DNA of 64,000 nucleotides from Hondaea fermentalgiana. Lineage: Eukaryota; Sar; Bigyra; Thraustochytrida; Thraustochytriidae. Shown piece after piece: positions 34,258-59,866 of this stretch (position 1 is the first letter of the stretch; each line of letters opens with the position of its first letter). Below the pieces are notes generated by a model, which did not search any database, was not told where the DNA came from, and was given only the letters and a program-made list of their open reading frames with translations. Position numbers and translations under genes: made by a program. The stretch spans positions 93,734 to 157,733 of the forward strand of contig NPFB01000063.1 of assembly GCA_014084085.1 (NCBI GenBank), read 5' to 3'.

Positions 34258-35205
34258 TCTGCGGCAAACGCTGCCTGCGCTGGTCCCTCGCGCTGCTGGC
34301 GCTGCCTGCTTCCGTGTCTGGCTGCCTGCCTTCCTGCCGGCCTGTCTGCCTGTCTACCTGCCTGTCTGTCTGCCTGCCTGCCTGCCTGCTTGTCTGTCTG
34401 TCTGCCCGCCTGGGAAGGTGGTTGCAGGTTTGTTGTTTGGTTGTTTTGGTGTTTGCTTCTTGGTCGTTTGCCTCTTTGGCTTTTTCTTTTCTTTTTCCTT
34501 TTTCTTTTTCTTTTTTCTTTTTCTTTTTTTTCTTTTTTTTTCTTTTTTCCTTTCTTCCTTTCTTTGGCCGCCGATGCGTCTGTCTGCTTTGTTTTTTTCT
34601 TTTGTCCTTTAATCGCCCGCCCGCTTGCCTGCCTCGGCTCGGCTGGGCTCGGCCCGACTCGGCTCCGCTCCGCGACCCGGTCGCACGCTCTGGCAGCGGC
34701 CCGCCCCTTTCTCCTGCTTTCTGCCCGCCCGCTCCCTGGCCGCGCGCTGCCGCTCCTCCAAAGCGCAGCGAAGGCGGTTTGCCGCCCCTCGCCCCGCCCT
34801 GCCGTCCCTCCTCTCCTCCCCTCGGGAGGGAGGAGGGAGGGAGCAGGAGGAGGAAGCGAGCCAAGGGGCAGCGCAGAAAAGGCAGGAGAGGGGGTTAAGA
34901 GAGAGGCGCCGGCTGCGGAGGCGGGGCGCAGAGATGGAAGCGCGCGCCGCGGCGGCGGATCAGCGAATCGAGTGAGGCAGGCGGGCAGGCAGCCAGGCAG
35001 AGACCGGGAGGGAGGGAGGGAGGAGGGAGGAAAGAGGCGGTTGCGGCGAGTGCAGCCCGTGCGGACGCGCGCGGGCGAGCCTGCAGCGAGGGCTGGGAGA
35101 GGAGGCGAAGGCGTGAGCAGGGGGAACCGTCCGTCGTCGCCGAGGGGCTGCGAATCATCATTCTCTCTCTCGCTCTCTCGCAACAGCAAGCAAGTGCCAG
35201 AGAAA
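34258..35205. other. 5' flank of the Q/N-rich gene: pyrimidine tract switching to purine tract
   Basis: On the + strand, 34315-34620 is dominated by CTGC/CTGT and then CTTTT pyrimidine runs. GC-rich sequence follows, and a local inverted repeat (34804-34843, CCTCC arm, CTCGGGAG centre, GGAGG arm) marks the switch to purine-rich GGGA/GGAG sequence. It is probably promoter and leader of the minus-strand gene ending at 34257. Confidence 0.55.
34325..34412. repeat. CTGC/CTGT imperfect tetranucleotide repeat
   Basis: About 20 CTGC, CTGT and CTTG units with few interruptions, immediately upstream of the Q/N-rich gene. Confidence 0.85.
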
Positions 35206-35207
35206 CA

Positions 35208-35259
<52 letters not shown>

Positions 35260-35360
35260 NNNNNNNNNNNNNNNNNNNNNNNNNNNNNNNNNNNNNNNNN
35301 NNNNNNNNNNNNNNNNNNNNNNNNNNNNNNNNNNNNNNNNNNNNNNNNNNNNNNNNNNNA

Positions 35361-35412
<52 letters not shown>
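35206..35412. repeat. (GAAA)n array interrupted by an assembly gap
   Basis: About 54 bases of pure AAAG units on the left (35206-35259) and 53 on the right (35360-35412) of the N stretch, in the same orientation. The true array is longer than shown. Confidence 0.95.
35260..35359. other. Assembly gap (100 N)
   Basis: Exactly 100 N, typical of a placeholder of unknown size, inside the GAAA array. Confidence 0.99.
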
Positions 35413-35566
35413 CGCACGTGGAAAAAAAAAATTCAACGCAAAGTCTCAAAAAAAAAAGAACAGCGTGCCAGACACTCGGAGAGAAAAAGAAATTGGTGAA
35501 AGAATGAAAGAAGTATCAAAAGTTGGAAGCCCTAAGCTGCGGGAAGGTGGACGCCCGTCCCGGGAG

Positions 35567-35650
35567 GACCGGAGAGAGCGTGAGCTGCTGGCCGTCTGTG
35601 GGAATGGCATGGTGGACCGGAGAAAGCGCGAGCTGCTGGCCGTCTGTGGG
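35567..35650. repeat. 48-bp tandem minisatellite, about 1.8 copies
   Basis: A unit starting GACCGGAGAGAGCGTGAGCT at 35567 recurs at 35615 with about two substitutions over 36 bp. Both copies contain GAGCTGCTGGCCGTCTGTGG. Confidence 0.9.
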
Positions 35651-35663
35651 GACGAGAATTCTG

Positions 35664-35960
35664 GCCTTTTCTTTCTTTTACTTTTTCCGGCGTTCTTTCC
35701 TTCATTCCTTCTTTCGTCCACTGGCGAGTCTTTCAGAGAAAGATGATTTTCGTTCGGCCGTCTCTCGCGCGTTCTCTCCTTCTCTCCTTGCTCCACTTCT
35801 GCCTCCTTCCTTCCTTCCTTCCTTCCTTCCTTCCATCCTTTCTTTCTTCCTTCGTTTCCACTGTAAAATGTATTCTCCCCTCTCTCCTCCCTCCCTCTCA
35901 CCTTCTCTCCCTCCGGTCGCGCGCGCGCACGCGCTCGCTCTGCTCCTCGCTCTTCCTGCT
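35664..35960. repeat. Pyrimidine-rich tract with (TTCC)n
   Basis: CTTT/CCTT-rich on the + strand, including an uninterrupted TTCC run at about 35804-35834. With the purine tract at 34810-35560 it makes a purine-to-pyrimidine switch. Confidence 0.8.
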
Positions 35961-57477: not shown

Positions 57478-57515
57478 TGGCTGGCTGGCTTGCTGGCTGG
57501 CTTGCTTGCTGGCTG
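57478..57515. repeat. CTGG/CTTG repeat
   Basis: Nine tetranucleotide units mixing CTGG and CTTG. Confidence 0.85.
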
Positions 57516-58180
57516 AATCGGAGTCCTTCCGTGTTGATCATCCTGACTTACTGACTCCCGGATCCTCTTCAAGTTGCATGGTTGGTCGCAACAGGCAGCT
57601 GCAGCTTTTGAGAGGTAAAAATTCTGGCTGCGTTCTTCGTTTTTTCCATCTTTCGTTCGAGTTCTTTGTCGCGCGCACCAATCATCCAGTCAGCCAGACA
57701 AACAGACGCCAGAAGAAGCTACGCGCGCGCGGAGGGACGCTTCCGGCGCCACGACCGGCCGTGCAGAGAGACCAGAGAGCATGTAAGAGTATCCTTCCGC
57801 CCGAACGACCGACCGGCCGGCCGGCAAGCCACACGCACGCACGCACACACAAAGGGAGGAGCGAACAAACGAAAGAACCATCGACAGGATCGATCGAGCG
57901 AGGCCTGGCACGAAGCACTGCGACTGCGGGTTCGCTGAGGCCTCTGTGGGGCGCCCTGGCTGCGCGGGCTTCGAGTGTGCTGGTAATAACGAATAGTAGA
58001 GCCTCCACTGTAGCCGCCGCTCTCTGCACGCGCGCGGACTGACCTCGGAAAGATGACCGACAAACAATCAGTCAGTCAGACATACAGACGTACAGACAGA
58101 CGGAAGAATTTGCGCGCGCGCGGGCCGGCCTCGGCCTGACTTGCCCTAGGCGGCCCTGGCCGGCAAGCTGCAACCACGGT

Positions 58181-58236
58181 GGCTGGCCGGCTGGCTGACT
58201 GGCTGGCTGGCTGACTGGCTGGCTGGCTGGCTGGCA
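58181..58236. repeat. GGCT repeat with periodic GACT
   Basis: Fourteen units. GACT replaces GGCT at regular spacing, giving a higher-order period of about 20 bp. Confidence 0.9.
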
Positions 58237-58624
58237 GCTACGCACGCTCCGCGCTCTGTCGTCCTTCGACTTCCTGCCGTCTTCCCGACTCCCGCCTGCG
58301 CTCTTGTCTCTGGGCTGCTGTGGATGCTGTTGCCAGAGGCCAGCTGCTACCTTTCCAGTCACCACTCGCTCCTCTGCAGATCGAAGGCGGAACGAGCCCA
58401 TCCTCAGCATGGGGACGAAAAGAGGTCTAGGGAGGGGTGCGAATTGTGAAAGGGACAATGTTGAAGTATTTTCGCTGGCCATGAATAAGGGCCTCAGCGG
58501 AACAACGTGAGGCGGTTGTTCCGAGAACCAACGGAGTATCAGAACCTCGATCCGTTTCAAAACAGTCTCTCGGCTGCGGCGACATCATATGTTGAAACAG
58601 CTGACCAATGACACGACGACGTGC

Positions 58625-58626
<2 letters not shown>

Positions 58627-58661
<35 letters not shown>

Positions 58662-58664
58662 TTC
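58627..58664. repeat. (TTTC)n microsatellite
   Basis: About eight CTTT units. This is the complement of the GAAA array at the first gap. Confidence 0.93.
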
Positions 58665-59866
58665 CTTCTTTTTTTTCTTTCTTTCAACTTTGTCGTTGGA
58701 CGCCAACCTTTCTTTTCTCACTCTCCGAACTGCAGGTGTCTCCAACGTAAAATCGACACGCCCACTTCTACCCAACATGCACAAAATAATAATAATAAAT
58801 TGGAAACAGAAAGGACTGCAGGCGTTCTTACTTGCAAAAGAAAAGAAAGAAAAAGAATGAAACAAAAAATCAAAGGAAGAAAGTTTGGACGCGAACGCGT
58901 TCGCATTGCTCCCTGCTACCCACCCGTCCACCAAACCGACCGATCGATTCAATCAATCGTCCCCCGCCGCATGCACACGGGACGCGGGAAATAACAACGA
59001 CTCCCGGTTCTTTGCCAGACTGACTTGAAACTTCCCGCCTTCCCGAATCATGCATTCAAGCGTTCCCGGCCCGAGGCCAAGCATGACCTCCTCCTCCTCC
59101 TCCTCCTCGTGGTGCACCTTCGTTGTCCCATGAAGAGCGTTTGACGCTGCTCTTCAAATTATGTTGTACCATGGTGTACGATCGCAGCCGACAAAGGCTC
59201 ACAAAAAGAACAAAGCGAGCATTAGAAGGCGGGTAACTGCCGAGAAATCTTTTCCTTCTTCGAACAAACAACAGTGAAAAATCCCTAAAAGTTACGCGAA
59301 TGCAGCAAATGACTTGTTGAAATCGAAATACACGCCGCGTGGCGCCCTACGAGAGCTTCTTACGTGAAAACAATAAGCTCAATGGTCAGAGAAACAAAAT
59401 ATGTGCACGCTCTCCAGGAAGGCTTCGCGAATCATCCTTTCTTATCCGTTTCGTTTCGCAGTCGAGATTGTACGTGGCCTTCCGCTAATCTCCTTTCAGC
59501 ACTGTCATGGACCTAGCAGAAGTTGGCCGTCTTACGCCATCTTGGACTTACATCTTTCTCAAATTTTTCCGGCTCCATCCCTCTCTCCATACTCTCGGCA
59601 AATTCGGAACGGATGAGGTCATTGCGGAATGTGCAAGAGCACCGAAAACGGGAAACAAGCTTGTAAGTGCGGTTTCTTGAATGTCAGAAGATTGCAATTT
59701 ATAGGGTTTCACAGCACGCACAGCCTAGTCAGACCCAAGTACGCTTGTTTAGAACAAGCAGCATCGTCGTCGAGCCGTCGATGCAATGATGGTACGTGCT
59801 GCACCCTTTTCTCGTTGGCGTCTTCCCCGACCCTTAAGAAGCAACGAAAGAGCGATCTCACCGTTT

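Follow-up and report, generated by a model that had tools for sequence, protein, structure and literature searches.

Why a stretch of 25.6 kb without genes lies between dense gene regions is the question raised by a 64,000-nucleotide stretch of Hondaea fermentalgiana DNA (C198:93734-157733; hereafter the window), taken from an assembly of 36.0 Mb in 238 contigs. The non-coding block in question spans positions 34258-59866 of the window (C198:127991-153599). It would represent one extremely long intergenic region in an otherwise compact genome, lengthened through repeated tetranucleotide slippage and subsequent point mutation, and both processes together would have produced fresh microsatellites and a period-4 background across the block. 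Lying wholly 5' of the gene on its left, a possible regulator, the block would serve as the extended upstream cis-regulatory region of that gene. For this combined reading, a slippage-grown upstream region acting as an extended control region, the chances are judged about even.

The block is bounded on the left by the start codon (ATG) of the left flanking gene at 34257 (minus strand) and on the right by the stop codon of the right flanking gene at 59867 (minus strand). Coding potential was scored with a codon model trained on the genes of the window. The best segments of the block reached 10.7 and 10.2 (10.4 and 9.9 in another run); 30 shuffled versions of it (order-3 Markov), scored with a slightly different training set, reached at most 10.8, and the window genes scored 20 to 261. 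The block is without coding signal above shuffle level, and the gene-free interval described in the original prediction was confirmed at these limits. None of 89 open reading frames (ORFs; stop-to-stop, at least 120 amino acids, overlapping 34700-59866) matched Pfam at 1e-3. Several weak coding-like segments (up to 10.7, shuffle level) were seen at 49988-51088, in a part of the block with lower guanine-plus-cytosine (GC) content, and might be a decayed gene.

Searches for RNA genes gave no transfer RNA and no Rfam match in the window at the gathering score. Five weak Rfam matches in the block (E 0.06 to 0.39) were all far under the cut-offs and were rejected as known structured RNAs, two of them lying on a poly-pyrimidine microsatellite and two on one CT-rich inverted repeat. 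The block might instead be a long non-coding RNA locus, as had been suggested, or be transcribed as an exceptionally long leader of the left gene; this is considered improbable, and the missing Rfam match at cut-off, which counts against it, says little on novel RNAs.

The length of the block was compared with 82 non-coding runs in a sample of 241,545 bases (0.7% of the genome, partly picked around relatives of the left gene, and not a genome-wide rate). The block was the longest run, at 25.9 kb with N included versus a median of 610 bp, and is about 40 times the usual intergenic length. The second-longest sampled run measured 15.0 kb, 11.8 kb of which was N. A second desert at C27:85001-95000, a region picked for simple repeats on both sides, was rejected because it is packed with coding segments. 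Published thraustochytrid genomes comprise 30 to 60 Mb and are gene-dense at the smaller end, according to an excerpt of PMC12258536.

In composition, the block is much like other intergenic DNA of the same genome. Its GC fraction was 0.595 versus 0.589 in other non-coding DNA, and its CpG and TpA ratios were slightly lower. The hexamer CAGCTG was three times as dense in the block (1.57 per kb versus 0.48 in other non-coding DNA); a special CAGCTG code was rejected, since the hexamer did not rank among the first 25 6-mers when an order-3 Markov null was applied.

Tandem arrays were identified with Tandem Repeats Finder (TRF). They cover 1,932 of the 25,409 known bases of the block (7.6%), so that its description as made of simple repeats was an overstatement. 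The number of tetranucleotide families, predicted as at least ten, was 11, and several minisatellites were present as predicted; of the supposed several CAG/CTG runs, two arrays reached the TRF score used. The longest continuous array measured 111 bp, and an AAAG array crosses a gap of 100 N. The arrays include a degenerate CTGC array of 27.8 copies immediately upstream of the left gene (34302-34412, TRF), a 33-bp minisatellite of 2.1 copies (43054-43122), (CAG)11 (45513-45545), an AGCT-family array with a 16-bp higher-order unit (47010-47070) and (GCT)8.7 (55894-55919).

After masking of arrays and homopolymers, the identity at distance 4 in the block was 0.313 versus an order-3 Markov expectation of 0.263 (z 16.8), and period 4 was the strongest among periods 2-16. 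Period 4 exceeded its neighbouring periods in all 25 kilobase windows of the block, in 53 of 69 windows of other non-coding DNA and in 43 of 125 coding windows. Since period 6 matches period 4 in strength in other non-coding DNA (0.295 and 0.291), a clear dominance of period 4 was found only in the block. Degraded tetranucleotide repeats occur throughout this single-copy sequence, and we infer that the block grew by slippage. Because pure microsatellites are accompanied by slippage periodicity, the earlier suggestion of a fast-evolving region is plausible. Outside tandem arrays, the sampled non-coding DNA as a whole showed excess periodicity at 4 and at 6 bases, and coding DNA showed a period-4 deficit. 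The 12-mer AGCAGCTGCAGC was counted genome-wide 413 and 401 times per strand versus 39 and 38 times for the reversed letters.

The block was cut into six pieces, none longer than 4.8 kb and together covering all of it, and each was searched against the genome. Every piece found itself at 100%. The remaining matches were at most 118 bases long and fell on simple or degraded repeats, apart from a self-complementary stretch of 91 bases. Of the 92, 106 and 60 candidates in three of these searches, 40 each were scored, and very common words were skipped. Judged by these searches, the block is single-copy aside from short simple-repeat matches. An origin from dispersed repeats or transposons, like a transposon-rich heterochromatin, was rejected on finding no long dispersed copies and no transposable-element genes recognised by Pfam in the 89 ORFs. 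A GC-rich segment at 52987-53077 aligned with its reverse complement over 91 bases at 77% and could fold into a hairpin.

The main rival of the control-region reading is a neutral spacer, grown by slippage without function and tolerated as no gene was interrupted. It is possible, if on the unlikely side. The period-4 signal throughout the block, the GC content near that of other non-coding DNA and the lack of dispersed copies all fit neutral growth. A run of 25.9 kb versus a median of 0.6 kb suggests upkeep and so speaks against it, though not decisively.

A regional centromere or a heterochromatin domain was the first possibility named in the original prediction. The block is gene-free and unique, like some epigenetic centromeres, and 100-bp low-GC windows were found in it (5 of 503) and not in the rest of the window (0 of 765). 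The sequence-defined types of centromere were both rejected. The diatom-type rule, as given in an excerpt of PMC12227449, calls for clustered 100-bp windows of at most 32% GC within 3 kb together with a 500-bp GC trough. At most two such windows per 3 kb (1-kb steps) were counted, and the lowest GC over 500 bp was 42.4%. The block resembles the centromeres described in that excerpt in being a gene-free stretch of a stramenopile-like genome, and differs from them in its GC of 59.5% without a low-GC core (PMC12227449); it is GC-rich, as is other intergenic DNA. A satellite centromere was rejected in view of the 11 tetranucleotide families, the short arrays and their small share of the block, and the absence of one dominant satellite, already brought forward against a classic satellite centromere, was upheld by TRF. 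With neither dispersed copies nor recognised transposable-element genes in addition, a centromeric or heterochromatic nature of the block is very unlikely, although an epigenetic centromere independent of sequence is conceivable.

Two N gaps were predicted and found, each of exactly 100 N, at 35260-35359 within one (AAAG)n microsatellite and at 51451-51550 within a poly-C run. As both lie in simple repeats, the real size of the block is not fixed and its length of 25.6 kb is nominal. Gaps of exactly 100 N are a common sign of a gap whose size is not known, and the flanks might not be real neighbours but an artefact of assembly. However, each gap interrupts a single repeat that resumes across it (AAAG/AAAG and poly-C/poly-C), which favours true linkage of the flanks without fixing the length. 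In addition, the 16.1 kb between the gaps (35360-51450) are gene-free and uninterrupted. An assembly artefact is accordingly given hardly any weight. Another 100-N gap was noted within (TGTC)n at C198:80001-80100.

The case for a control region depends further on the left flanking gene (31918-34257, minus strand), which encodes 779 amino acids and points with its 5' end toward the block. The block is non-coding and lies 5' of this gene, where a cis-regulatory region would be placed. The protein had no match in Pfam (threshold 1e-3), in the prokaryote-oriented NCBIfam library (0.1) or, by profile search, among PDB sequences (0.1). Its conserved domain (33109-33654, minus strand) was predicted by AlphaFold2 (AF2) and fold searches to be an immunoglobulin (Ig)-like beta-sandwich. 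In an alignment of 12 sequences, Cys, Cys, His and Cys were invariant, arranged as C-x3-C-x3-H-x5-C in the left protein. Among structure matches, velvet was best by Z and p53 best by Foldseek, with STAT and NFAT near; the scores were middling and unrelated folds were close. On these models, the product of the left gene may be a regulator that binds DNA and belongs to a lineage-specific family. A long antisense open frame over the gene (33004-33759, plus strand) equals the sense frame in codon-model score and is probably a by-product of composition.

The family comprises 16 loci in the same genome (C125:444198, C160:113538, C159:335505, C198:31934, C198:37552, C198:41805, C198:126863, C62:70510, C1:458250, C41:17602, C91:229171, C80:154740, C195:53002, C134:16493, C23:85145 and C184:479528). 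Four members are located on C198, three of them inside about 11 kb. The stretch KN[LI]RC[FY]PxC...H...FCG is conserved, and none of the four members that were scanned has a recognised domain. JGI and MMETSP list one relative of the left protein, and 93% identity over the domain was recorded for a relative.

The upstream side was inspected at nine of the 16 loci. On C198, the upstream runs of the three other members were 9,975, 3,968 and 3,968 bp versus a median of 997 bp for 38 other segments; the p value of 0.0046 covers these three members only, as the left gene of the window was outscored there by the antisense ORF. With the left gene included, p was 0.0012, and with intervals counted once, 0.0072. 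The two runs of 3,968 bp are one divergent interval shared by two members, and the run of 9,975 bp is mostly N and common to a family member and a divergent RNase HII gene. Downstream runs of the family members on C198 were of ordinary length. Elsewhere, the upstream run of the C62 member measures 15.0 kb and consists mostly of N, that of the C125 member measures at most 6.2 kb, and the C134 member has an N run of 16.1 kb. Long N runs upstream of three members (C198:22618-31733, C134:17689-33797 and C62:75140-86904) begin some 0.2 to 4 kb away from the conserved domain; they may represent repeat-rich DNA that was left unassembled, or letters that were withheld. Taken together, these lengths are suggestive of long upstream regions as a tendency of the family. 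The long runs on C198 speak against a neutral spacer, again not decisively.

Several observations weigh against the control-region reading. The upstream regions of the C160 and C41 members do not exceed about 1.4 and 1.8 kb. When the block was compared with eight upstream stretches from other loci, the matches were all short and lay mostly in simple repeats; the lack of clearly shared elements fits a neutral spacer. Finally, a 6.9-kb non-coding run (C198:75131-82050, including a 100-N gap) lies upstream of a metabolic gene whose product combines SIS and glutamine amidotransferase domains and resembles glutamine-fructose-6-phosphate transaminase; the neutral spacer gains from this example as well. 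That the left gene encodes a transcription factor and that its family has long upstream regions are both partly supported, and we infer a regulatory function of the block.

The right flanking gene (59867-61609, minus strand) faces the block with its 3' end. It encodes 580 amino acids with a Pro/Thr-rich repeat, and all of its 13 database matches (13 of 13) carried PF04886; a signal peptide and a membrane segment were assigned by eye only. Of 34 further matches in its own genome, 32 overlap the Pro/Thr repeat and two only the N-terminal part. A WW-domain protein follows at 62149-64000 (plus strand) and continues past the window edge. The genes of the window are eukaryotic (GWT1, a BEACH protein, ATG2, an aminotransferase) and mostly consist of long open frames. 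Among the listed matches of the GWT1 protein, the highest-placed named stramenopile is Aplanochytrium stocchinoi (40% identity); it stands below two unnamed proteins (50% and 46%), one assigned to Brassica (38%) and a further unnamed one, and is followed by many other eukaryotes. In the left part, where eight long genes with spacers of at most about 1 kb had been described, nine coding segments were found with gaps of up to 1,546 bases between them; some of the segments may be exons of a single gene.

As a whole, the earlier interpretation is partly supported. Beyond it, the block was found to resemble other intergenic DNA and to lie 5' of a possible regulator, some relatives of which have long upstream regions. 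If it is regulatory, the block would show long-range upstream control in this protist group. No report of such control or of gene deserts in thraustochytrids was found in searches of open-access literature, which is weak evidence given that scope. If it is neutral, the block would be a clean case of intergenic DNA that grew via tetranucleotide slippage and without a part played by transposons. In both cases, attention is drawn to a family of possible regulators at 16 loci.

In animals, transcription-factor genes have long upstream regulatory regions, known as gene deserts. The block is similar to these in far exceeding the usual spacer and in its position 5' of a possible regulator. It differs in belonging to a compact, unicellular-type genome, in its richness in slippage products and in the lineage-specific family of the regulator, and it is known from sequence alone. 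A unicellular, stramenopile-like protist with a compact genome might have evolved upstream regulatory regions of tens of kilobases that serve transcription factors of an expanded Ig-fold family (velvet/p53/STAT-like), the DNA being supplied by tetranucleotide slippage, as an independent counterpart of the developmental gene deserts of animals; this wider proposal is doubtful and is put forward tentatively. Replication slippage is also known to yield cryptically simple intergenic DNA. The block agrees with such DNA in holding many microsatellite types on a degraded periodic background, and it is set apart by a period of 4 that is the strongest of periods 2-16 and in excess in every one of its 25 kilobase windows.

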